15,845 bases of DNA from Chloroflexota bacterium (GTDB taxonomy: Bacteria; Chloroflexota; Anaerolineae; Anaerolineales; Villigracilaceae): positions 1 to 15,845 of the forward strand of contig JACPVD010000223.1 in assembly GCA_016191895.1 (NCBI GenBank), given 5' to 3'. Below are positions 878 to 15,845 of this stretch, piece after piece. Position numbers and translations under genes: made by a program. Position 1 is the stretch's first letter. Each line of letters starts with the position of its first letter. Under the pieces are notes generated by a model, which searched no databases, was not told where the DNA came from, and saw nothing but the letters and a program-made list of their open reading frames with translations.

Positions 878-1594
878 TTATTCGATACCCAGGTAGGTTT
901 TTTGAACCATTTCGTTCTTCTTCAATTTGGCGGCGTCATCGGTCAGGGCAATCGAGCCGGTTTGGAGCACATAACCGCGGTTGGCAATCGAGAGCGCCAT
1001 GAGCGCGTTCTGCTCCACGAGCAGGATGGTGACACCCTGTTCGTTTAATTTTTTGATGATATCGAATATCAAATCCACCAGCACGGGAGCCAGACCCATG
1101 GAAGGCTCGTCCAGCATGAGGATGCGGGGATTGAGCATCAGTCCGCGTCCGATGGCGAGCATTTGCTGTTCGCCGCCGGAGAGAGTCCCGCCGTATTGGG
1201 AGATTCTTTCCTTGAGGCGCGGAAACATCTCGAAGACCAGTTGGAGCCGGTCTTTGATCGCCTTTTGGTCGTTGACGGTGAAGGCGCCCATTTCGAGGTT
1301 TTCCTGCACGGTCAGTTTTGGGAAGATGCCGCGTCCCTCCGGCACATGACCAATTCCCATCCTGACGATGTTGTGCGGTTCGGCATGGGTGATGTCCTTT
1401 CCGTCCAGCAGGACCTTGCCTTCGCGGGCGTGGATAATGCCGGAGATGGTTCGCAGGGAGGTGCTTTTTCCCGCGCCGTTGGAACCGATCAGGGTGACGA
1501 TTTCGCCTTCGTTAACGTAAAGGGAGACGCCTTTCAGGGCATGGATGTGTCCGTAATAGGAATGGACATTGGTGAGTTCGAGTAGTTTTCCCAT
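878..1594 (-). CDS. livF: Branched-chain amino acid ABC transporter ATP-binding protein LivF
   Basis: This 238-residue protein is the second ATPase of the importer and works at the inner face of the membrane as a heterodimer with LivG. Walker A is GSNGAGKST (37-45), the ABC signature is LSGGEQQ (138-144) and Walker B is ILMLDEP (158-164). The LivF trademark VPEGRGIFP follows at 84-92. The switch position is Gln195 in LLVEQN rather than His, which is usual for LivF and not a defect. Length is normal for the family. The start at ATG 1592-1594 is supported by TAGGAG about 9 nt upstream, which overlaps the livG stop codon. That leaves only 11 nt between the genes and suggests coupled translation. 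It is the last gene of the operon, just before the terminator at 826-860. Confidence 0.97.
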   Translation of the reverse strand: MGKLLELTNVHSYYGHIHALKGVSLYVNEGEIVTLIGSNGAGKSTSLRTISGIIHAREGKVLLDGKDITHAEPHNIVRMGIGHVPEGRGIFPKLTVQENLEMGAFTVNDQKAIKDRLQLVFEMFPRLKERISQYGGTLSGGEQQMLAIGRGLMLNPRILMLDEPSMGLAPVLVDLIFDIIKKLNEQGVTILLVEQNALMALSIANRGYVLQTGSIALTDDAAKLKKNEMVQKTYLGIE

Positions 1595-1605
1595 GACAGA
1601 TGCTC

Positions 1606-2394
1606 CTATGCCTTTTGCTCGTGAGCCACGGCGGCGCCTCTGCCGAGGTAGGCTTCGATCACGCGCTGGTTCGAGCGAATCTCAGCCGGGGAGCCTTCGG
1701 CGATCTTTTCTCCGTAGTCCATCACGCTGATGTGCTCTGATATTCCCATGACCACGCGCATGTCATGTTCGATCATCAGAATGGTGATTCCCTTGTCGTC
1801 GCGGATGCGCCGGAAGAGTTTGATGGCATCCTCCGATTCGTTCGGGTTCATACCGGCGGTGGGTTCGTCCAGCAGAAGCAGGGTGGGGTTGGCCGCCAGG
1901 GCGCGGGCGATCTCGATGCGGCGCTGCCCGCCGTAGGGCAGGTTGCGGGCAAGTTCATTGCCGACATTCTTCAAGCCGACGTATTCCATCAGGTCTTTTG
2001 CGCGCTGCTCGGCGTCGTTTTCCTCTTGATTGAATTTTCTGGTGCGGAAGATCGTGTCGAGCCCGCCTTGTTTCAATTGGATGTGCATACCGACCAGAAT
2101 ATTCTCGATCACGGTCATGCTTCCAAAGAGGCGGATGTTCTGGAAGGTGCGGGCAATGCCGGTGGCGGCAACCTGGTCGGGACGCAGCCCGATCAGGGAT
2201 TGTCCCTTGAAGGTGATCTGCCCCTCTTCCGGTTTGTAGATGCCGGTCAGGCTGTTGAAGAATGTGGTTTTTCCGGCTCCGTTTGGTCCGATGATGCTGA
2301 CGATGCGTCCCTCGTCCACCGAGAAGGTCATTTTGTTGACGGCTACCAGACCACCAAAGCGTTTGACGACATTTGTAGTGTTGAGTAAGGTCAT
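1606..2394 (-). CDS. livG: Branched-chain amino acid ABC transporter ATP-binding protein LivG
   Basis: This 262-residue ATPase pairs with LivF. Walker A is GPNGAGKTT (36-44), the Q-loop is Gln85 in ARTFQNIRLF, the signature is the LivG-type LPYGGQRR (152-159) and Walker B is LLLLDEP (172-178). The switch histidine is His210 in MIEHDM. The C-terminal tail beyond about residue 230 is the short extension typical of liv-type ATPases. The gene starts at ATG 2392-2394, 12 nt after the livM stop codon. A purine-rich AGGCGG overlaps that stop and is the likely, rather distant, ribosome binding site. All catalytic residues are intact. The position between livM and livF is the classic liv order, so the function is secure, although the exact substrate (Leu/Ile/Val, or an amide or urea) depends on LivK. 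Confidence 0.97.
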   Translation of the reverse strand: MTLLNTTNVVKRFGGLVAVNKMTFSVDEGRIVSIIGPNGAGKTTFFNSLTGIYKPEEGQITFKGQSLIGLRPDQVAATGIARTFQNIRLFGSMTVIENILVGMHIQLKQGGLDTIFRTRKFNQEENDAEQRAKDLMEYVGLKNVGNELARNLPYGGQRRIEIARALAANPTLLLLDEPTAGMNPNESEDAIKLFRRIRDDKGITILMIEHDMRVVMGISEHISVMDYGEKIAEGSPAEIRSNQRVIEAYLGRGAAVAHEQKA

Positions 2395-2406
2395 GATGTC
2401 AACCGC

Positions 2407-3744
2407 CTATTCTTTCTCTTCGACAAGTTCGCGCTTGCGCCGTTCTGCCGGGATCAAACCGGACGGACGGAAGATCATCATCAGGATCAGGATTAAACCA
2501 AATACCAGTTTCTGGTACTTCGCCGGGTCCAATTGATTGGAAAGGTCCTTCCAGGCAAAGTTGATGATCGGGATGACGGCGTCGCTCTGGCGAAGTTCGC
2601 TCAGGTACAGCGAGAAGTTTTGCAGGATTTGAATATTGAGCAGCACGACCGCCGCCGCGCCGAAGATGACTCCGGGGATGCTTCCCAAGCCGCCGAGGAT
2701 GACCATGGTCAGCACGCCGATGGATTGGAGGAAGGAAAACGTCTCGGGGCTGACGAAGGTTCGATTCGCGGCGTAGAGCGCGCCCATGGCTCCGGCAAAG
2801 GAGGCTCCGGCGGCGAATGCGGCGAGTTTCATCTTGACCAGCGGAATGCCCATGGCGATGGCGGCGGTCTCGTCTTCGCGGATCGCCGTCCATGCGCGCC
2901 CGATGCGGGAATCTTCCAGGCGGGTGGCGACTAAAATCGCAATTGCGATGATGATCAGCGCCAGGAAGTAAAAGAAGACGTTGTAGAACTCGGCATCGGT
3001 GGGGACGTGCCCCACAAACGGCTCGAGAATATCGCGGAAGAATTGAAGGATCGACTCCGGGGGGAGGGGCGGGCGTTGAATGGGGGTGATGCCCTGCGGT
3101 CCGTTGGTCAGGTTGATCGGTTTGTCGAGGTTGAGCGCCAGCACGCGAATCACTTCGCCAAATCCGAGCGTAACGATGGCGAGGTAATCGCCTTTCAAAC
3201 GCAGGACGGGCAAGCCGAGCAATATTCCTGTAATGGCTGCCAGCCCGACGCCGAGGAAGAGAAAGAGCCAGAACCACCTTGGGTCGAGGGCAAAGGGGGC
3301 ATCGGCGGGAGCCGCGCCCGGAACGGAATAGAGGAGAGATAGTTGTTTCGAACCGAAGATCGCCCAGGAATAGGCGCCAACGGCGTAGAAGGCGACGTAC
3401 CCGAGATCGAGCAGCCCCGCCATGCCGATCACGATATTCAAGCCCAGCGCCAGCGCGGCGAAGACCGCCATCTGGAAGATGACCTCCAAATAGAAAATGT
3501 TGCGGATGCCAAGCACCGGCAGGATGATAACGATCAACATCAAGCCGATGAAAACCTTTACCTTCATGTTCATTTTCATGAAATAAAGGATCAACGGGGT
3601 GGACATCAGGATAAGAAATGCCGCCAGCGATCTTGGGCTTTGATATACGCTAAATGTGCCAATCAACAGGAATGCCAGGGCGATCAGCACGGGCCAGAAA
3701 CCCGTATTGGCTTTCTTGAAAAAATTGCCAAAGAGTGTGTTCAT
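2407..3744 (-). CDS. livM: Branched-chain amino acid ABC transporter permease LivM
   Basis: This is a 445-residue integral membrane protein, one half of the channel with LivH. Hydrophobic segments are obvious at about 16-36, 41-57, 64-80, 88-110, 113-131, 158-178, 256-273, 306-327 and 343-370. Family landmarks are GLNIVIGMAGLLDLGYVAF (101-119) and LRLKGDYLAIVTLGFGEVIR (181-200). The cytoplasmic coupling loop RIGRAWTAIREDETAAIAMGI ends near residue 300, and GGLGSIPGVIFGA lies at 351-363. The N-terminus has extra hydrophobic segments before the core, as often seen in LivM. A good AAAGGG sits about 7 nt before the ATG at 3742-3744. It follows livH by 12 nt, so the two are cotranscribed. Confidence 0.96.
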   Translation of the reverse strand: MNTLFGNFFKKANTGFWPVLIALAFLLIGTFSVYQSPRSLAAFLILMSTPLILYFMKMNMKVKVFIGLMLIVIILPVLGIRNIFYLEVIFQMAVFAALALGLNIVIGMAGLLDLGYVAFYAVGAYSWAIFGSKQLSLLYSVPGAAPADAPFALDPRWFWLFLFLGVGLAAITGILLGLPVLRLKGDYLAIVTLGFGEVIRVLALNLDKPINLTNGPQGITPIQRPPLPPESILQFFRDILEPFVGHVPTDAEFYNVFFYFLALIIIAIAILVATRLEDSRIGRAWTAIREDETAAIAMGIPLVKMKLAAFAAGASFAGAMGALYAANRTFVSPETFSFLQSIGVLTMVILGGLGSIPGVIFGAAAVVLLNIQILQNFSLYLSELRQSDAVIPIINFAWKDLSNQLDPAKYQKLVFGLILILMMIFRPSGLIPAERRKRELVEEKE

Positions 3745-3756
3745 GGGATACCCTTT

Positions 3757-4890
3757 CTACGCCTTCTGACCGACGGTCTGTCCGAGCAGGCCGGAGGGGC
3801 GGAAGATCAGCACCAGGATGAGAATGGCAAAGGCAAAGATATCCTTGTACTCTGCGCCGAACGCGCCGTTGGTGAAAATTCCCAGGTAGGAGGCGGCGAA
3901 AGACTCGAGCAGCCCCAATACCAGACCGCCGAGCAGGGCGCCTGTCAGGTTGCCGATGCCGCCCAATACCGCCGACGTGAACGCTTTCAAACCGGGGAAA
4001 AAGCCGGAGAACGGGTCGAGTTTTGTCGCTTTGAGAGCAAACAAGACGCCCGCCGCCCCCCCCAGCGTGCCACCGACGAGAAAAGTGATCGAAATGATCT
4101 GGTTGACGTTGATCCCCATCAGGCTGGCGGAAGGACGGTCCTGCGCAACGGCGCGGATGGCTTTGCCAACCTTGGTGCCGTTCACCAGGTAATTAAGCCC
4201 CACCAGCATCAGAACAGCGACCCCGACCATGATGGCGGATTTGATCTGGATGCGAAGCGGGTCTTCCATGCCGGGGACTGCCAGTTTCCAGAATTCGTCA
4301 AAGGTGCCGAACTTGGGAAGAATGACGTTGAACTCGCCCGTTGTCAGGCTGAGGATCAGGCGCACGATATCCTGAAGGAAGAAGGACATGCCGATCGCAG
4401 AGATAAGGGGCACGAGTTTCGGCGCGCCGCGCAGGGGTTTGTAGGCGAGCCGTTCCACCACCACCGCCAGCGAACCGGAAACGACCATCGCCAGGATGAT
4501 GGCAAGCGCGATGACCAGGTACTCGTTCATGGTCGCCAGCGTGCCGATATGTTCGAAATACGCCATCAACTGAATGCCGACGATGCCGCCGACCATGAAG
4601 ATCTCGCTGTGTGAAAAATTAATGAATTCCAAAACACCGTACACCATGGTGTAACCCAGGGCGATGGTGGCATAGACAAAGCCGATAGTGACGCCGTTGA
4701 TGACGACCTGCGGCAGGATCAGCATCGTCCTTTCGACCAGGTCGAAATCTGTCACATTGAACTTAAAGATAAAAGCGAGCAAAACGGTTACCAGCGACAG
4801 GACTACGCTCGCTCCGAGGGCGAAAATAAGAATCTGCCCGATTGGAAACAGAAGAAATTTGTAAACGGGATTTTCGGTGATACTCTTCAT
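3757..4890 (-). CDS. livH: Branched-chain amino acid ABC transporter permease LivH
   Basis: The 377-residue permease is the partner of LivM. Landmarks are GYTMVYGVLEFINFSHSEIF (79-98), the coupling loop RAVAQDRPSASLMGI (246-260) and LKAFTSAVLGGIGNLTGAL (301-319). There are about nine hydrophobic segments, including an N-terminal one at 16-43 preceding the usual LivH core. Three in-frame starts compete: TTG at 4899, ATG at 4896 and ATG at 4890. AGGA in ACAGGATTG lies 9 nt before the ATG at 4890 but only 3 nt before 4896, so I chose 4890. A hairpin with a tetraloop separates this gene from livK and probably makes permease expression lower than that of the binding protein. No residue looks damaged. 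Confidence 0.95.
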   Translation of the reverse strand: MKSITENPVYKFLLFPIGQILIFALGASVVLSLVTVLLAFIFKFNVTDFDLVERTMLILPQVVINGVTIGFVYATIALGYTMVYGVLEFINFSHSEIFMVGGIVGIQLMAYFEHIGTLATMNEYLVIALAIILAMVVSGSLAVVVERLAYKPLRGAPKLVPLISAIGMSFFLQDIVRLILSLTTGEFNVILPKFGTFDEFWKLAVPGMEDPLRIQIKSAIMVGVAVLMLVGLNYLVNGTKVGKAIRAVAQDRPSASLMGINVNQIISITFLVGGTLGGAAGVLFALKATKLDPFSGFFPGLKAFTSAVLGGIGNLTGALLGGLVLGLLESFAASYLGIFTNGAFGAEYKDIFAFAILILVLIFRPSGLLGQTVGQKA

Positions 4891-4915
4891 TATCATCAAT
4901 CCTGTCTTGAAAATG

Positions 4916-4945
4916 AGCCTCTCTCCCCTTGCGGGGAGAGAGGCT
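4916..4945 (-). promoter_or_regulatory. GNRA-capped hairpin between livK and livH
   Basis: A perfect 12-bp stem (GCCTCTCTCCCC 4917-4928 with 4933-4944, plus an A-T pair outside) closes a 4-nt loop. On the transcribed minus strand the loop reads GCAA, a GNRA tetraloop. The run after the stem is only CATTTTC, too poor for a full terminator. It lies 20 nt past the livK stop codon. The likely role is partial termination or protection of the livK 3' end from exonucleases, giving more binding protein than permease. On the plus strand AGGCTTTTGTTG follows the stem. Confidence 0.75.
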
Positions 4946-4964
4946 TTTGTTGCAATCGGCGGGA

Positions 4965-6251
4965 TTATTCGCCCTTGCCGGGGGAGGCCACTTCGAGAAT
5001 TTCGACGATCTCGTTGGTGTTCCAGGTGTCCTTGGTCGCGCCGTTCACCTTGAGGATGAAGTACTGCGCGGTCGGGAGGTCACCGATGTCGTCGAAGGCG
5101 ATGGCGCCGGTCAGACCTTCGATGCTGACCTGGCGAACCGCTTCCGCAACCTGCAAGCGGCTGGGGGTGCCGCCGGCGGCTTCAGCCGCAGCCTTGATCG
5201 CGGCAAGGCAGACAGCCATCGAGTCGTACGCCTGGGCGGCGAAGGGTTCCGGCGTAGCGCCGAACTTGGCTTCGTAGTCCGCGGCGAACTGGGCGGCGGC
5301 GGCGTAGGCGCTCGCCGGACCAGCAACGGTGGTGTAGTACATACCGCCGCCGGTGGTCAGAGCGTCGCCGGCAATGTCGGCGAGGTCAGAGGCATCCATA
5401 CCGTCGGTACCCATGAAGGTGCCTTCGTAACCGGCATCGCGAGCCTGCTTGAAGAACACGCCAGCCTGGTTATAGATACCGGCAAAGAACACAACATCCG
5501 GCTGAGCCGCAACGAGCGGGGTCACGATCGCGTCGAAGTTGGCGGTTTCTTCGGTGCCTTCGAAGGCGACGATTTCCAAGCCATCTTCTTCAGCAGCGCC
5601 GCGGAAGAACTCGGCAACGCCCTGACCGTAGGCGGTCTTGTCGTGGATGATGTAGACGGATTTGGCGCCGAGGGTGGTGAAGGCGAACTCTTCAGCAGCT
5701 GGAGCCTGAACGTCATCGCGACCCACGACACGGTTCACTTCGAGGTAACCACGGGTGGTCACAACGGGGTTGGTGTTGGCGGGGGAGACGAAGGCGAGGT
5801 TGGCGGTGTGATATTCCTCGGAAGAGGGGATCATCACGCCGGAGTTCAAGTGACCGACACCGCAGAGGATCTCGGAATCAGCGACGATGTTCTTCGCATT
5901 CGCAACGCCGACGTCAGGGGTCGCCTGGTCATCGTACGGAGCGAGCTGGACATCGTAGCCCATCGCGGCGAGATCGCCGCCGAGCTGTTCGAGAGCCAGT
6001 TCAGCGCCCTGCTTGATGGCAACGCCGAGCAGAGACTGACCGCCGGAGAGCGGGGACTGGGTCGCAATCTTGATGGTACCCATCGAGGCAGCAGCTTCTT
6101 CGGTCGCGGCGGCTTCGGTCGCGGGAGCTTCGGTCGCGGCGGGTTCTTCCGCAGGGGCTTCGGTAGCCGGCGCGGCTCCGCCGCCACAGGCGGCGAGCGC
6201 CATGCTGGCAACAACCAGCAGGGACAGTAAAGCGAGTAAACGCTTGTTCAT
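4965..6251 (-). CDS. livK: Branched-chain amino acid ABC transporter substrate-binding lipoprotein LivK/LivJ-type
   Basis: This 428-residue extracellular lipoprotein delivers substrate to LivHM. The start is ATG 6249-6251, because GGAGGAG lies 7 nt upstream and the protein then begins with a proper lipoprotein signal peptide. That peptide is a short MNKR followed by a hydrophobic core to the lipobox LAAC, with the lipidated cysteine at residue 22. Residues 23 to about 56 form a low-complexity linker of Ala, Thr, Glu and Pro that lifts the domain off the membrane. The rest is a Peripla_BP_6 (type I periplasmic-binding) fold, beginning GTIKIATQSPLSG and containing GVGHLNSGVMIPSSEEYH and the second-lobe segment VYIIHDKTAYGQGVAEFF. 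It is the first gene of the operon. Ligand class (Leu/Ile/Val, other amino acid, amide or urea) cannot be settled by eye. Confidence 0.95.
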   Translation of the reverse strand: MNKRLLALLSLLVVASMALAACGGGAAPATEAPAEEPAATEAPATEAAATEEAAASMGTIKIATQSPLSGGQSLLGVAIKQGAELALEQLGGDLAAMGYDVQLAPYDDQATPDVGVANAKNIVADSEILCGVGHLNSGVMIPSSEEYHTANLAFVSPANTNPVVTTRGYLEVNRVVGRDDVQAPAAEEFAFTTLGAKSVYIIHDKTAYGQGVAEFFRGAAEEDGLEIVAFEGTEETANFDAIVTPLVAAQPDVVFFAGIYNQAGVFFKQARDAGYEGTFMGTDGMDASDLADIAGDALTTGGGMYYTTVAGPASAYAAAAQFAADYEAKFGATPEPFAAQAYDSMAVCLAAIKAAAEAAGGTPSRLQVAEAVRQVSIEGLTGAIAFDDIGDLPTAQYFILKVNGATKDTWNTNEIVEILEVASPGKGE

Positions 6252-6445
6252 TATCTTACTCCTCCAAAACATAAACAAAATTTGATTCCCGCAAGCAACT
6301 GCGGGTGGCAGCAAACAGGCAGACCAGGCGCGGGTGGGTCGGCGTCACCTCCTTTCAAGGGATATATATACAAAGAAAGCCTAAAAAACCTATCCGGATT
6401 TTTTCGGCTTGCTTGGATGACCCTAAAGTGTGCCCGTCTTGAGAA
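6252..6445 (-). promoter_or_regulatory. Structured livK leader with an orphan STAB-like Shine-Dalgarno
   Basis: This roughly 190-nt untranslated leader contains three things on the minus strand. First is an A/U-rich hairpin at 6377-6410: AAGCC pairs with GGCTT and AAAAAA with TTTTTT, with one G/A mismatch and a bulged T. Second is GAAAGGAGGTGA with its core at 6348-6356, a perfect complement of the 16S tail but with no start codon in range. Third is a small hairpin, CCCGCA with TGCGGG (6288-6305), close to the true livK ribosome binding site. GAAAGGAGG is identical to the STAB-SD that stabilises the 5' end of cry3A mRNA in Bacillus. No known riboswitch was recognised. Upstream of the promoter, 6481-6615 holds only short direct repeats (TGTCCATAC at 6488 and 6576). 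Confidence 0.55.
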
Positions 6446-12552: not shown

Positions 12553-13431
12553 ATGAAAACGAAAGGCATTCGCGGATTGTGGGCTGTGCCCGTTGTGTTG
12601 TTTTTGCTTATCGGGGTCTATGGCTTGTTCACGCTTGGGAGACCTGCGCCGGTTCCGGTCAAGCGGCAGCTGTATGAAGGAGTCGCGTATCACCGCGTTG
12701 TTTACTACCTGCCTCATGCCATGATCGCGCATGTGGCGGTGATCGACAGGAGGCAGGCGGAGTTTCGCTTTTTGGTCACGCCTCCCGACGAGATCGAAGG
12801 CGGCGCTCTCAAGGCGCGGACAACCTCTGAGTTCATGGAAGAATTTGGCGTTCAGATCGCCATCAATGGAGACGGGTTTTCTCCGTGGTGGTCGCGTTCG
12901 CCCGTGGATTATTACCCGCACAGCGGAGACCCGGTCACCCCGTTGGGATTCACTGCGTCGGGCGGGGATGTTTATGCCGACGGGTTGCAGGATGAAGAAC
13001 CCGAACCGACTTTGTACATCAACCGGCGCAACGAACTGACGTTCAACCTGCCTCCGAATAAAATCTTTCACGCCCTTTCCGGCGACCGGATGTTGATTCA
13101 GGGCGGCGAGATCGTGACTGGGTTGGATGATTCCGTTCTGCATCCGCGCACGGCGATTGGCGTGAACCGCAACGGGCGGTATGTGATCCTGGTGGTGGTG
13201 GACGGACGTCAGCCGTTTTATAGCGCAGGCGCGACGTACCAAGACCTTGCCGATTTACTCAAGGACTTCGACGCTCATTTTGCCATGGCGTTGGATGGCG
13301 GCGGTTCCTCCACGCTTGTTGTGCAGGATGCGTTAGGCAATGCCGAGGTCTTGAATTCGCCGATTGATAATTACGTCCCCGGGCGGGAGCGCCCCGTGGC
13401 GAATCACTTCGGGGTTTATATCAAACGCTAA
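12553..13431 (+). CDS. Membrane-anchored phosphodiester glycosidase family (NAGPA-like) protein
   Basis: The 292-residue product starts at ATG 12553, chosen because it places the basic MKTKGIRG directly before a hydrophobic stretch (about 9-27), an uncleaved anchor or signal peptide. An upstream in-frame ATG would add an unlikely tail. The C-terminal half is the NAGPA domain. HPRTAIG (197-203), the VVVDGRQ segment with Asp217-Gly-Arg, the LADLLKDFDAHFAMALDGGGSS block (DGGGSS 248-253) and a late RPVANHFGVY tail are its hallmarks. The founding member, human uncovering enzyme, removes N-acetylglucosamine from a phosphodiester. Bacterial members act outside the membrane on sugar-phosphate linkages of cell-wall or exopolysaccharide. 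The substrate here is unknown. The only upstream ribosome binding signal is a weak CAGG. Its stop codon overlaps the stop of the convergent nuclease gene. Confidence 0.9.
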   Translation: MKTKGIRGLWAVPVVLFLLIGVYGLFTLGRPAPVPVKRQLYEGVAYHRVVYYLPHAMIAHVAVIDRRQAEFRFLVTPPDEIEGGALKARTTSEFMEEFGVQIAINGDGFSPWWSRSPVDYYPHSGDPVTPLGFTASGGDVYADGLQDEEPEPTLYINRRNELTFNLPPNKIFHALSGDRMLIQGGEIVTGLDDSVLHPRTAIGVNRNGRYVILVVVDGRQPFYSAGATYQDLADLLKDFDAHFAMALDGGGSSTLVVQDALGNAEVLNSPIDNYVPGRERPVANHFGVYIKR

Positions 13432-14249
13432 AACTCGATCTCCCCGACCTGCTCGAAGTTGATATCGAACAACTCTTCGGCTTCGGTTTCCAACTCCGCA
13501 TCGAGCGCGTCTCCCGCGCGGATACCGCGGTTGCAGTACGATCTATAAGGGCAGTAAAGGCAGCGGTTGGCGTCCTCAGTTTTCGGGTAGGAAGAGGCGT
13601 TTTTTATTTCCTCCGCAAAACGAGTCAGGGCGTCCCAATCCCGCTTGAATTGATCGGCTGCGTAGGGGAATCGGGCCGGGTCGTTTGGAAAATCCGAGAA
13701 CCAGTAGATCATCTCGATCTGTTCGGGGGCGATGGGTTTGCCGCCATTGAGAAACGCGCCCGCCTGAGTCAGCAGCGCGCGGTAGACGCGGGTCTGCCAG
13801 CGAATGGCGAGGAATTCGTTCTTGGGGCGTTTGCGATAGGTCTTCCAATCGTAGATGTAAAACTTTTTTCCGTCGGATGCGATCAGGTCGTATTTTGCGA
13901 CGAGACGATATGCTCCCAATGGCGCGGAGAGGGTTACTTCGGTTCTGAGACCTGACAGGTCTCGCAGACCTGTCAGGTCTTTGGAATTCACGAAATTCCC
14001 CCACCAGCGCGCGAGATTATCGCTGTTCGCTGTTTTGGCGATTTGCTCTGCCGGGATGCCGATGAAATATTGCTGGGCGAGCCGGTGAAAAGACTCGCCC
14101 TCGCGCTGGTGCTTTTCATTTTCGAGCGCGGGCTCGGTTTCGATGGCAGGATACGCCAGGCGTTGCAGATAACGCAACTCAAACCGGCGCGGACAGTCGT
14201 TATAGTCCTGCAAAGACGATTGGCTGAGCGTGGGCAGTTCGATGGGCAT
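13428..14249 (-). CDS. PD-(D/E)XK nuclease of the RecB/Cas4/AddB type with Fe-S cysteines
   Basis: This 273-residue protein fits the PDDEXK_1 family. Motifs in order are QSSLQDYNDCPRRFELRYL with Cys19, GESFHRLAQQ with His55, KYDLI with Asp121, IYDWKT with Asp134 and Lys136, QTRVY (Gln152-x3-Tyr156), and CLYCPYRSYC with Cys230, Cys233 and Cys239. The D/D-x-K/QxxxY set is the metal-dependent nuclease centre of RecB-type enzymes. Cys19 with the three late cysteines is the arrangement that holds a 4Fe-4S cluster in AddB and Cas4. It lacks helicase domains. Residues 91-102 (DLTGLRDLSGLR) are encoded by a palindromic repeat and look like an insertion. No Cas genes are nearby, so a CRISPR role is not supported. 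DNA end-processing or repair is more likely. It overlaps the convergent NAGPA-type gene by 4 nt and is divergent from the NYN gene. Confidence 0.9.
   Translation of the reverse strand: MPIELPTLSQSSLQDYNDCPRRFELRYLQRLAYPAIETEPALENEKHQREGESFHRLAQQYFIGIPAEQIAKTANSDNLARWWGNFVNSKDLTGLRDLSGLRTEVTLSAPLGAYRLVAKYDLIASDGKKFYIYDWKTYRKRPKNEFLAIRWQTRVYRALLTQAGAFLNGGKPIAPEQIEMIYWFSDFPNDPARFPYAADQFKRDWDALTRFAEEIKNASSYPKTEDANRCLYCPYRSYCNRGIRAGDALDAELETEAEELFDINFEQVGEIEF
13948..13980. repeat. 33-bp palindromic repeat inside the PD-(D/E)XK gene
   Basis: AGACCTGACAGGTCT (13948-13962) and AGACCTGTCAGGTCT (13966-13980) are exact reverse complements separated by CGC. Each arm is itself nearly symmetric. The sequence resembles a short dispersed repeat, here captured in frame (33 bp = 11 codons) without breaking the gene. 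Confidence 0.8.
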
Positions 14250-14257
14250 GGCTTATT

Positions 14258-14288
14258 TTGCCACAGAATTTTGCGCCTATGCTATACT
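14258..14288 (+). promoter_or_regulatory. Promoter of the NYN-domain gene
   Basis: TATACT (14283-14288) is preceded by TGC, an extended -10, and TTGCCA (14258-14263) stands 19 bp before it. Transcription would begin near 14295 and leave a leader of about 60 nt containing a CAGGG/CCCTG hairpin. It occupies the 105-bp divergent gap. Confidence 0.5.
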
Positions 14289-14354
14289 CCTGCCAAAATT
14301 CGAGGATGGACAGGGATAAACGCCCTGCCATGCTCATGAAAATCTCGGAGTTTT

Positions 14355-15470
14355 ATGGGACAGGAAACACAAGTTGCTGTTTTCATTGATTACGACAACA
14401 TTGAAATCAGCGTGGAAGAAGCCTTTGGCAAAGGCACGGATGTAGACTGGAACCGCATTTTCAACTATGCCTCGCAGGTCGGGCGGGTGATTCTGCGCCG
14501 CGCCTACGCCGACTGGGCGGAAGCCGCCAACAAACAGCGCAGCCTGCTCGGCATGGGCGTGGAATTGATCCACGTCAACAGCAAGCGCGGCAAGAACGCC
14601 GCCGACATCCGCATTGTGCTGGACGCGATGGAACTGTACTACAACGGGCGCGACACGTTTACCCATGTTTTGCTCGTTTCCGGCGACGGCGATTTTACGG
14701 AACTCGTCCATCGCCTGCGCGCCAACGGCAAGACCGTGATCGGTCTGGGCATCAGCGGCACGACGGCGGATTTCCTCGTCAGCGCCTGCGACAAATTCGT
14801 CTATTACGATAAATGGCAGGGCGTGGGCAAGTTCAGAAGGGAAACGCCATCCAACGGCGGACAGAAACAACAGCAAGCCAAGCCGAACAATCCGCCCGCG
14901 CAAAAGCAGGAAAAGCCCCAGCCACAGGAGAAGCCCCAACCTCAGGAAAAAGCGCAGCCGCAGGAAAAGCCCGCGCCCAAACCCGCCGCGCCGATCTCGC
15001 CCGAAAAACGGCTGGAGCGTTACCTCAACATCCTTGCCGCGCACAAGATTCGCATGACGCCCAGCGCGAATCGTCCGCTGGTGATTTATAAAATCTACGA
15101 CATCGTCAAAGAGGACGCGGGCATTACGTTCAACCAACTGAAGGAAAAGGCGCAGGCGGTCTTTGCCAACACAAAGATCGAGCCGCAACTCGCGCTCGAT
15201 ACCGCGCATCAACTTTTCCATACCTTCTGCTTCGAGTTCGACCAAAGCGGCGACCGCATCATGGATCGCAAGATGACGATCCCCGACGATGTAAAATCCC
15301 CCGCCGACCTGCTCAACAAATGCGACCAGAAACTTTTGCAAATGATCTCAGGCGACCTCGGCGCGTCGGAAACGCTCGACAGGGAAATCGCCGCGAAAAT
15401 CCTCTACGGCGGCGCGCGCAGCCCCAGGGTCTTCGATCATATTCAGGAATTGCTGGACGCCGAAACTTAG
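14355..15470 (+). CDS. NYN-domain (LabA/DUF88-type) putative RNase with C-terminal helical domain
   Basis: The 371-residue protein starts at ATG 14355 with GGAG 4 nt upstream. Residues 5-150 are a NYN domain, a PIN-like metal-dependent nuclease fold. FIDYDNI supplies Asp12 and Asn15, NAADIRIVLDAM supplies Asp84 and Asp90, and LLVSGDGDFTEL supplies Asp111 and Asp113, so the acidic cluster is complete. Residues from about 160 to 215 are a Pro/Gln/Lys/Glu linker with a repeated QEKPQP-like unit, probably disordered. The last 155 residues (from SPEKRLERYLNIL) are mostly helical, with two possible winged-helix-like segments. They recall the RNA-binding C-termini of other NYN proteins, but I cannot name the domain. 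The likely role is RNA cleavage or turnover. A promoter for downstream DNA overlaps its 3' end. Confidence 0.88.
   Translation: MGQETQVAVFIDYDNIEISVEEAFGKGTDVDWNRIFNYASQVGRVILRRAYADWAEAANKQRSLLGMGVELIHVNSKRGKNAADIRIVLDAMELYYNGRDTFTHVLLVSGDGDFTELVHRLRANGKTVIGLGISGTTADFLVSACDKFVYYDKWQGVGKFRRETPSNGGQKQQQAKPNNPPAQKQEKPQPQEKPQPQEKAQPQEKPAPKPAAPISPEKRLERYLNILAAHKIRMTPSANRPLVIYKIYDIVKEDAGITFNQLKEKAQAVFANTKIEPQLALDTAHQLFHTFCFEFDQSGDRIMDRKMTIPDDVKSPADLLNKCDQKLLQMISGDLGASETLDREIAAKILYGGARSPRVFDHIQELLDAET
14907..14978 (+). repeat. Four tandem 18-bp units coding a Pro/Gln/Lys linker
   Basis: Units begin at 14907, 14925, 14943 and 14961. Each starts CAGGA and codes six residues of the QEKPQP type. Third-position differences show that the copies are not recent. 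The array lies in the linker of the NYN protein and keeps frame. Confidence 0.8.
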
Positions 15471-15477
15471 GTATAAT
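15450..15477 (+). promoter_or_regulatory. Promoter upstream of the small ORF and ABC-F gene
   Basis: TTGCTG (15450-15455) and a perfect TATAAT (15472-15477) are 16 bp apart. The -35 lies inside the end of the NYN gene and the -10 starts 2 bp after its stop codon. Initiation would fall at about 15484, next to the ATG at 15485. Confidence 0.65.
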
Positions 15478-15484
15478 CGCAAAC

Positions 15485-15580
15485 ATGCTTTACATCTTCA
15501 GCACAGGCAAACCCCTTTTTGCAATGGCGATCAACGGCTTCGATAACGCCGTTCCTTGTCGTATTGCGCCTGTATGCTGA
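15485..15580 (+). CDS. Possible 31-residue leader peptide before the ABC-F gene
   Basis: An ATG at 15485 opens a 31-codon frame ending in TGA at 15578-15580. It begins MLYIFSTGKPLF and ends CRIAPVC. There is no Shine-Dalgarno. The ATG lies 7 nt after the TATAAT box, so the message would be leaderless or nearly so. It stops 19 nt before a strong terminator and 88 nt before the ABC-F start. I recognise no homologue, and a frame of this size can occur by chance. The support is positional: promoter, short frame, terminator and ABC-F gene in the order of a ribosome-mediated attenuator. An inner in-frame ATG at 15524 would give 18 residues. The alternative is that the region is a small non-coding RNA. 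Confidence 0.4.
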   Translation: MLYIFSTGKPLFAMAINGFDNAVPCRIAPVC

Positions 15581-15599
15581 AAGGTCACACCGCTTTCAC

Positions 15600-15630
15600 A
15601 CGCCGCAGGCAGTCTGCGGCGTTTTTGTTT
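15600..15630 (+). terminator. Strong intrinsic terminator in the ABC-F leader (probable attenuator)
   Basis: ACGCCGCAG (15600-15608) pairs perfectly with CTGCGGCGT (15614-15622) around GCAGT, followed by TTTTTGTTT. It lies downstream of the promoter at 15450-15477 and 38 nt before the ABC-F start, so it would cut the transcript to about 145 nt unless overcome. The 3' arm can instead pair with AACGCCG at 15545-15551. Confidence 0.85.
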
Positions 15631-15636
15631 AAGTAC

Positions 15637-15654
15637 CGCAAGCTTAAGCTTGCG
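15637..15654. repeat. 18-bp perfect palindrome just before the ABC-F start
   Basis: CGCAAGCTTAAGCTTGCG is its own reverse complement and ends 14 bp before the ATG at 15669. It may be a dispersed repeat, an operator, or an RNA hairpin that limits ribosome access to the ABC-F start. Confidence 0.6.
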
Positions 15655-15668
15655 CCACGAGAATAACT

Positions 15669-15845
15669 ATGATCCAAATTCAACGCGCTAACATCACCCT
15701 CGTCCTCGGCGGCATACGTATTTTTGAGAATCTCAATTGGGAGTTTCAGCGCGGACAAAAGATCGGCCTTATCGGTCCGAACGGCGCGGGAAAATCGTCC
15801 CTGTTCAAGCTGATCGAAGGCGAGCATTCGCCCGAACTGGGCGGA
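15669..15845 (+). CDS. ABC-F type ATP-binding cassette protein, N-terminal 59 residues only
   Basis: The frame opens at ATG 15669 and is still open at the window edge. The visible part is the start of an ATP-binding cassette: strands MIQIQRANITLVLGGIRIF and ENLNWEFQRGQKIGLIG, then Walker A GPNGAGKSS (36-44) and LFKLIEGEHSPELGG. There is no membrane segment. The wording of this N-terminus (GGIRIFENLNWEF, SPELGG) is that of the first domain of ABC-F proteins, soluble tandem ATPases that bind the ribosomal E site and relieve stalling or give antibiotic resistance. The second domain and the linker, which would prove the family, lie outside the window. The ribosome binding site (ACGAGAA) is weak. 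Its leader contains a terminator and a possible leader peptide. Confidence 0.8.
   Translation, partial: MIQIQRANITLVLGGIRIFENLNWEFQRGQKIGLIGPNGAGKSSLFKLIEGEHSPELGG

Follow-up and report, generated by a model that had tools for sequence, protein, structure and literature searches.

We analyzed a window of 15,845 nt, i.e., the whole stretch of DNA from contig JACPVD010000223.1 (assembly GCA_016191895.1). It is one end of a contig in a metagenome-assembled genome (G000; completeness, 67%). Near its 3′ end, the window carries a leader region followed by the start of a gene encoding an ABC-F ATPase. A first-pass annotation had proposed this leader to be a ribosome-mediated attenuator with mutually exclusive helices in a probable member of the Chloroflexota; comparison with related leaders supports this core idea, and the host indeed belongs to this phylum (Anaerolineales). 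The open reading frame (ORF), the TATAAT element, the terminator, and the ABC-F start annotated in that first pass were all found in place. The parts of the leader and the gene behind it are:

15450..15477, + strand: promoter, with TATAAT at 15472–15477 and a weak −35-like TTGCTG at 15450–15455
15485..15580, + strand: leader ORF of 31 codons, probably leaderless, encoding MLYIFSTGKPLFAMAINGFDNAVPCRIAPVC and closed by a stop codon (TATAAT-to-start gap of 7 nt in each of the 42 genus leaders; wobble-rich change at codons 13–19)
15503..15508, + strand: putative anti-antiterminator segment 1a, ACAGGC (codons 7–8), with partner GCCTGT at 15568–15573 (minimum-free-energy fold and pair probabilities; synonymous recodings)
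15521..15567, + strand: predicted inner helix of the anti-antiterminator, 15521–15530 with 15556–15562 and 15565–15567 (fold prediction for the window)
15566..15583, + strand: antiterminator 5′ strand, GCGCCTG followed by GC and TGAAAG (distance of 81 nt between ATG and GCGCCT in each of the 42 genus leaders; folds)
15593..15609, + strand: antiterminator 3′ strand, CTTTCA at 15593–15598 plus the terminator 5′ arm (GC 15602–15603, GCAGG 15605–15609) (91.1% and 72.1% of cells paired in the two helices)
15600..15628, + strand: intrinsic terminator, stem 15600–15609/15613–15622, loop 15610–15612, then T-run (96.5% of cells paired)
15669..15845, + strand: putative controlled gene, start of the ABC-F ATPase, cut by the contig end (85% identity over 59 residues to P0001)

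While the TATAAT of the annotated promoter is present, its −35 element (TTGCTG) matches the consensus at only three of six positions, and a sigma-70 promoter scan of the window called no full site at 15450–15477. The terminator, annotated as a perfect 9-bp hairpin with a T-run, is present with a stem that actually comprises 10 pairs (nine Watson-Crick and one G-U). The leader stop codon (TGA, 15578–15580) sits inside the antiterminator 5′ strand. Rfam contained no family matching the leader at gathering score.

The ABC-F reading frame starts with an ATG at 15669 and runs for 59 codons before the contig ends at 15845. A full-length orthologue, P0001 (543 residues), is encoded on contig C60 of the same assembly; a Pfam scan of P0001 found PF00005 in two stretches and PF12848 (ABC_tran_Xtn), so that the two ABC domains and the linker of an ABC-F protein are seen in the orthologue, the window itself holding 59 codons. 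P0001 also passes the NCBIfam model NF000355 (“ribosomal protection-like ABC-F”; 436 bits, cut-off 380), and the annotation of the controlled gene as ABC-F thus holds. Among the 25 matches listed, P0001 fell below cut-off for the Msr, Sal, Vga, producer, CplR, CarA, OptrA, Lsa, VgaF, and MsrSA models; by the models listed, it does not qualify as a curated antibiotic-resistance ABC-F protein. EttA entries were the closest to this ABC-F in a PDB sequence search. Orthologues (at least 78% identity, fragments included) were found in 43 of 57 genus genomes, as 41 full-length genes and two N-terminus fragments. G000 itself contains two orthologous copies of the locus (ABC-F plus a PD-(D/E)XK gene), each with its own leader, at 13428–15845 of the window and at L002/L005 on contig C60; the copies are 81% identical over the ABC-F start, suggesting that two related strains or species were binned together.

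To describe the leader across orthologous loci, we used 46 upstream regions, made up of the window, the ABC-F loci of the genus, a second copy, and a paralogue of 50% identity. When these regions were scanned for TATAAT and a start codon after a gap of 4–10 nt, without GCGCCT being required, 42 of them showed TATAAT, exactly 7 nt, and then a start codon (ATG in 40, GTG in two); the leader ORF comprised 31 codons in 36 of these and 25 codons in six. Each of the 42 has GCGCCT at a distance of 81 nt from the start. This exact spacing from TATAAT suggests that the ORF is probably leaderless, as the first-pass annotation had assumed. The four regions lacking the pattern are L036 (contig edge), L016 and L038 (no leader), and L049 (the paralogue).

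We then added 44 of 49 loci from other genera of the family, five with a match lacking the N-terminus being excluded, and applied an automatic rule that demanded a −10 element, a start codon, the motif CGCCT[GA], and a terminator. This rule accepted 74 of 89 upstream regions; the 15 others comprised three with ORF and motif lacking a terminator by the rule, six with the motif lacking a qualifying −10 element and start, and six lacking the motif. TATAAT was present in 73 of the 74 leaders, selected by a rule that required at least five of six matches, and the −10 element was separated from the start by 7 nt in 55 leaders, by 9 nt in 13, and by 6 nt in six, under a rule that allowed 5–9 nt and preferred 7. 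In four leaders, the motif is found in another frame at a similar distance from the ATG (L070, L086, and L092 at 83 nt; L063 at 78 nt). The comparison of orthologous leaders that the first-pass annotation had called for thus found ORF, motif, and terminator kept, whereas a tree-aware test for covariation, given below, was not significant. In the cultured Levilinea saccharolytica, the orthologue (L223) was not among the matches to the covariance model R1 (see below), and no leader was seen by eye.

Substitution counts over 60 leaders of equal length suggest that the ORF is constrained both as protein and as RNA. Codons 13–19 (IIGVRGF; AMAINGF in the window) showed on average 4.7, 3.3, and 15.3 changes at codon positions 1, 2, and 3, respectively, and this excess at position 3 indicates coding constraint. 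The codons GCG-CCT showed an average of 1, 0, and 0 changes, which partly reflects selection in this set, though not in the genus scan; codons 24 and 25 showed only two and no changes at position 3 but nine and 11 at position 2, opposite to what coding constraint would produce. Together, these patterns indicate that the motif is conserved at the RNA level. In seven of the 60 leaders, the ORF already ends at codon 26, but ATCGCGCCT is retained 3′ of the stop. Two hallmarks of attenuators that rely on an upstream ORF (uORF), a short ORF under coding constraint and an intrinsic terminator before the gene, are therefore present.

A third hallmark, a conserved antiterminator that excludes the terminator, emerged from folding the 74 leaders without the terminator 3′ arm. 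In nearly all of them, the motif folds onto the terminator 5′ arm and encloses a second stem at the end of the leader, which in the window contains the ORF stop codon; the window pairs are 15569–15573/15605–15609, 15576–15577/15602–15603, and 15578–15583/15593–15598. L011, with GCGCCTA, clearly departs from this pattern, and L053 adopts a different fold. Because the alignment is poor in the stem between motif and terminator, we used structure-based pair counts, which are uncorrected for relatedness. In 68 aligned leaders, 91.1% of cells were paired in the outer antiterminator helix and 72.1% in the inner stem, with double-sided changes at five of the six inner pairs; the pair-count score (0.172, as compared to 0.149 for shuffled leaders) exceeded all 500 shuffles and all slides. 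For the terminator, 96.5% of cells were paired, with double-sided changes at eight of 10 pairs; none of 500 shuffles came out as high. Six leaders (L020, L063, L066, L068, L072, and L082) have a different, GCCGTGGCGC-type terminator, and in the same six, pairing of the motif has switched from CCTG-CAGG to GCGCC-GGCGC.

The helices initially drawn for the switch fared differently. The hairpin AACGGC/GCCGTT (15533–15538/15548–15553) exists letter for letter and forms the tip of the anti-antiterminator fold predicted for the window, but it is complete in only five of the 60 same-length leaders. The antiterminator originally proposed, AACGCCG with CGGCGTT (15545–15551/15617–15623), is found in the window, but it is complete in only six of the 60; we therefore rejected it as the conserved switch, which uses the 5′ arm of the terminator and not the 3′ arm. 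Our search for a constant anti-antiterminator yielded none among the leaders listed; in these, the ORF partner of GCGCCTG is CAGGC (codons 7–8) in many genus leaders and GCGYGG (the VRGF codons) or other segments elsewhere. Upstream pairing of GCGCCTG was higher in the natural leaders (0.71) than in synonymous recodings (0.61; Wilcoxon p = 4e-6, 74 related sequences).

To model ribosome occupancy, we blocked the nucleotides from −13 to +15 relative to the P-site, a span that corresponds to the ribosome footprint, and folded every leader as far as the loop of the terminator. For the window, the model gave an antiterminator probability of 0.06 in the ribosome-free state; with a ribosome, the probability was 0.87–1.00 for P-site codons 1–16, 0.02 for codon 24, and 0.00 from codon 25; the mean over 74 leaders was 0.73–0.84 at codons 10–18, 0.64–0.75 at codons 19–23, 0.17 at codon 24, and 0.00 from codon 25. 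The conserved codons 13–19 fall within the high-probability range, and the earliest normal stop (codon 26, P-site at codon 25) coincides with the first position at which the model is silenced. During termination at the ORF stop, the ribosome would cover the motif fully in 52 of the 74 leaders, partly in 20, and not at all in two (L086 and the frame-shifted L089).

Taken together, the window leader is very probably a transcription attenuator of the ribosome-mediated type, whose sensor ORF would be leaderless. Comparison of sequences lends good support to the principle that the position of the ribosome selects antiterminator or terminator, through the conserved parts, their geometry, the coding and RNA constraint, and the related modules before other genes (described below), while we infer the leaderless start, the stalling, the read-through, and translation-inhibiting drugs as the signal. 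In the proposed mechanism, the RNA would begin at or beside the ATG, and a ribosome would initiate without a Shine-Dalgarno sequence. A ribosome reaching the leader end would cover GCGCCTG and the TGAAAG arm at the last codons and stop, so that the terminator (15600–15622) would form and the ABC-F gene would be off. A ribosome held early (e.g., by a drug, at or before the IIGVRGF/AMAINGF stretch) would break the anti-antiterminator and free GCGCCTG, which could then pair with the terminator 5′ arm through the extended hairpin and allow transcription to read through. Without a ribosome, the window's own fold would hide GCGCCTG and favor termination.

Several observations weigh against this interpretation. 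In the occupancy model, codons 17–23 of the window behave unevenly (0.09–0.91), and the 74-leader mean is already 0.58 without a ribosome and 0.57–0.69 at codons 1–9 (0.66–0.69 at codons 2–9), so that the sharp behavior of the window (0.06 to 1.00) is not typical. Covariation in the antiterminator is modest, as the number of double-changed pairs was not above that of shuffled leaders (159 of 500 shuffles), and a test of all column pairs of a 74-leader MAFFT alignment against a tree-simulated null found none significant, the best expected count being about 1.2; the antiterminator is conserved and mutually exclusive with the terminator, while the tree-aware test gives it no significant covariation. 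The invariance of CGCCT[GA] in the 74 leaders is partly due to selection because the rule demands the motif. The excess of upstream pairing over recodings is moderate, the sequences are not independent, and the partner of segment 1 differs between subgroups. Finally, of the two competing structures, it is the terminator that has the greater thermodynamic stability in most leaders; the switch must therefore be kinetic.

The first-pass annotation was confined to the ABC-F gene, but the same kind of module appears to precede other genes in the order. A covariance model built from 68 ABC-F leaders (R1) found matches at an E-value of 1e-3 in 171 of 350 order genomes (67 of 123 genera) and recovered 41 of 80 named ABC-F loci with at least 42 bits on the right strand. 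From the rows listed, we chose and fetched 60 matches outside the loci already in hand and tallied the genes behind them, using a Pfam scan of 20 proteins, NCBIfam for nine of these, and similarity and inspection by eye for the remainder. The genes comprised eight orthologues of the window-type ABC-F, three other ABC-F genes, 17 ABC exporters, four DrrA-like or similar ABC ATPases, seven GNATs, two RsgA, one MFS, 10 members of one small-protein cluster, and six without assignment (L140, where the called ORF is an ABC-ATPase fragment, L148, L149, L160, L163, and L169); two matches were dropped before counts, L139 (unrelated, no leader ORF seen) and L142 (no terminator). Two of the 17 exporters were scanned, and MsbA was the best match for L127 but below cut-off; the exporters are therefore described as MsbA-like only, a “multidrug” label being unsupported. 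The small proteins (L136, L137, L155, L158, L159, L166, L167, L174, L180, and L182; about 150–200 residues as called) are encoded directly behind the leader; five members scanned had no Pfam match, and the family is a candidate new translation-stress protein. The two genes encoding the ribosome-assembly GTPase RsgA (L152 by scan, L156 by similarity) follow leaders of the same kind, in which the motif reads GTGTGCC and the arm GGCACAC, a compensatory exchange of U-A for C-G. At L142 (G026:C17:28073-28166), the −10 element, ORF, and motif are present in a genome that is 97% complete; the matches listed for the ABC-F orthologue include none in this genome, and the site is likely a relic of a lost gene.

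A second covariance model (R2), built from 44 leaders of which none came from orthologues of the window's ABC-F, recovered the window with 57.5 bits (E = 1.9e-13). At 1e-4, R2 matched 40 of 400 phylum genomes, including 11 from the own genome or genus, 13 from the family, 10 from the order, four from the class, and two weak matches outside the class; one genome (G010) contained seven matches, and G000 contained one further match, before a gene that appears GNAT-like by eye (L272). We assembled 70 non-orthologous leaders (58 R1-derived leaders minus the eight ABC-F orthologues, plus 20 from R2; near-duplicates included). In 66 of these, an ORF with a Shine-Dalgarno match of at least four spans the motif and stops no more than 30 nt after the motif start; these leaders are thus mostly Shine-Dalgarno-led rather than leaderless, and the motif is read in frame 0, 1, or 2 in 52, 7, and 7 of the 66, respectively. 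Their terminators differ. Over 50 leaders, pairing of the motif with its own arm and loop amounted to −16.6 kcal/mol on average, whereas shuffled arms reached −11.1 kcal/mol; fewer than 5% of arm shuffles paired as well in 24 of these leaders. This energy test is supporting but not independent, because only composition is preserved in the null and the model that retrieved the leaders contains motif and terminator; rows with flaws (L169, wrong hairpin; L175, second hairpin; L183, shifted motif) were kept. Leaders with AGT before GCGCC had a CACT-like loop in 15 of 31 cases and GCAA in one of 31, those with ATT in none and five of nine, respectively, and 13 further leaders fit neither class; these patterns were chosen after looking at the data.

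The leader as a whole recurs before orthologues and before other gene families far beyond chance. We consider it probable that it represents a portable attenuator module, in which a conserved antiterminator strand (roughly CCTNNTCGNANTGCGCCTG) that would work in any frame precedes many unrelated translation-stress or resistance-like genes of the Anaerolineales, with few matches in the rest of the class; such a cis-RNA regulon would read the state of the ribosome without a protein regulator, and the window would represent its leaderless version. The genes putatively under this module include two kinds of ABC-F, MsbA-like ABC exporters, GNATs, MFS, RsgA, and the small-protein family.

Alternative explanations account for parts of this evidence. 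The stop codon of an upstream NYN-domain gene (15468–15470) is located about 130 nt upstream and the two genes are co-directional, so that the hairpin could be the ordinary terminator of that gene with a chance ORF over it. Over 47 loci, however, the stretches fetched contained only the NYN gene in 15, only a divergent PD-(D/E)XK gene in 15, both in 10, and neither in seven; since the upstream gene varies while the leader stays, also where no co-directional gene precedes it, the hairpin is more than a terminator for NYN transcription, and as the leader is also missing as a unit from some loci and shows a constant ORF length, promoter spacing, and antiterminator, we regard this explanation as scarcely credible. 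A ligand- or protein-binding, riboswitch-like leader RNA with an incidental ORF would be consistent with GCGCCTG being kept as RNA and read in three frames in the non-orthologous leaders; it is quite improbable given the protein constraint on the ORF in the ABC-F leaders, the Shine-Dalgarno-led ORFs that span the motif and stop within 30 nt in 66 of 70 non-orthologous leaders, and the lack of an Rfam match.

Two further explanations retain a translating ribosome. An amino acid attenuator, with the ribosome pausing until a scarce charged tRNA arrives, would have an identical architecture, and leaderless cysteine-responsive short ORFs are reported from mycobacteria; however, the peptides seen lack runs of a single residue, related leaders encode different peptides, and the controlled genes are resistance-like rather than biosynthetic, making this reading very improbable. 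Alternatively, the leader peptide may arrest its own ribosome and the ABC-F protein may relieve this arrest, resulting in a drug-free negative feedback for translation-factor homeostasis. The conservation of the IIGVRGF/AMAINGF stretch as protein, the proximity of the ABC-F to EttA, and the presence of the gene in most genus genomes (43 of 57) are consistent with such feedback, and ectopic MsrD suppresses msrD induction (PMC10314930). Leaders before exporters, GNATs, and RsgA carry other peptides, however, and an ABC-F-specific feedback can therefore not be the common rule; we consider it unlikely for the window. Attenuation by a ribosome held in the ORF thus remains the interpretation that we prefer.

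If this interpretation is correct, it predicts which genes of the mostly uncultured, environmental Anaerolineales respond to ribosome-targeting drugs; the conserved leader peptides would be candidate arrest peptides, and models R1 and R2 would serve as an annotation tool. As sensing would start with a leaderless ORF, the mode of initiation itself could contribute to the signal. The order appears to control several resistance-like genes through a single common RNA switch, with up to seven matches in one genome.

Two other features of the window were observed. Short palindromes of the type GTACCGCAAG..CTTGCG are located between the terminator and the ABC-F start (window 15633–15654; L002 1694–1746; L004 1517–1541) and also elsewhere in the same assembly, and resemble a dispersed repeat family. 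By a look at the sequence, positions 878–6314 (minus strand) contain a branched-chain amino-acid-type ABC transporter operon, with two ATPases, two permeases, and a binding protein.

Polycysteine leaderless short ORFs in mycobacteria, reportedly described by Canestrari in 2020 as attenuators, are similar to the window in that a leaderless short ORF acts as the attenuator sensor; they are said to sense cysteine and occur in another phylum. In the Chloroflexota, leaderless genes with a TAtaaT signal were predicted in four of 12 Chloroflexi genomes (PMC3160421). In the openly licensed literature, as judged by titles and abstract openings, we found nothing on this leader system, be it under Anaerolineae, Chloroflexi, or Chloroflexota, under leaderless leader peptides, or under ABC-F attenuation. 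Attenuation by a uORF is described for vmlR, msrD, and hflXr in Firmicutes (PMC9226507, PMC10314930, PMC6310831), and the ABC-F leaders that we found described as sensors of stalled ribosomes come from this phylum. Bacillus subtilis vmlR, an ABC-F gene controlled by ribosome stalling, shares with the window the series of uORF, anti-antiterminator, antiterminator, and terminator, but its uORF comprises three codons with a Shine-Dalgarno sequence, translation is also attenuated by a hairpin sequestering the Shine-Dalgarno sequence, and the system belongs to the Bacilli (PMC9226507); the window, with 31 codons, no Shine-Dalgarno sequence, and a motif common to leaders of other genes, is not a leader of the vmlR type. 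Streptococcal msrDL/msrD likewise combines a leader peptide and an intrinsic terminator before an ABC-F gene in transcriptional attenuation, but the six-residue peptide MYLIFM has its own ribosome binding site and the stalled ribosome itself blocks the terminator (PMC10314930); the start of the window ORF, MLYIF, resembles MYLIFM by eye only. In Listeria rli80/hflXr, a 14-codon ORF, anti-antiterminator, antiterminator, and terminator precede a translation-rescue gene; this Firmicutes system differs by its RLR arrest motif, and the passages of the source mention no leader motif shared by multiple genes (PMC6310831). Escherichia coli toiL is a uORF that answers several classes of ribosome-targeting drugs, with stalling proposed anywhere within it, but it acts on topAI translation, and thereby on Rho, with no intrinsic-terminator switch in the part of the source used (PMC12121999).

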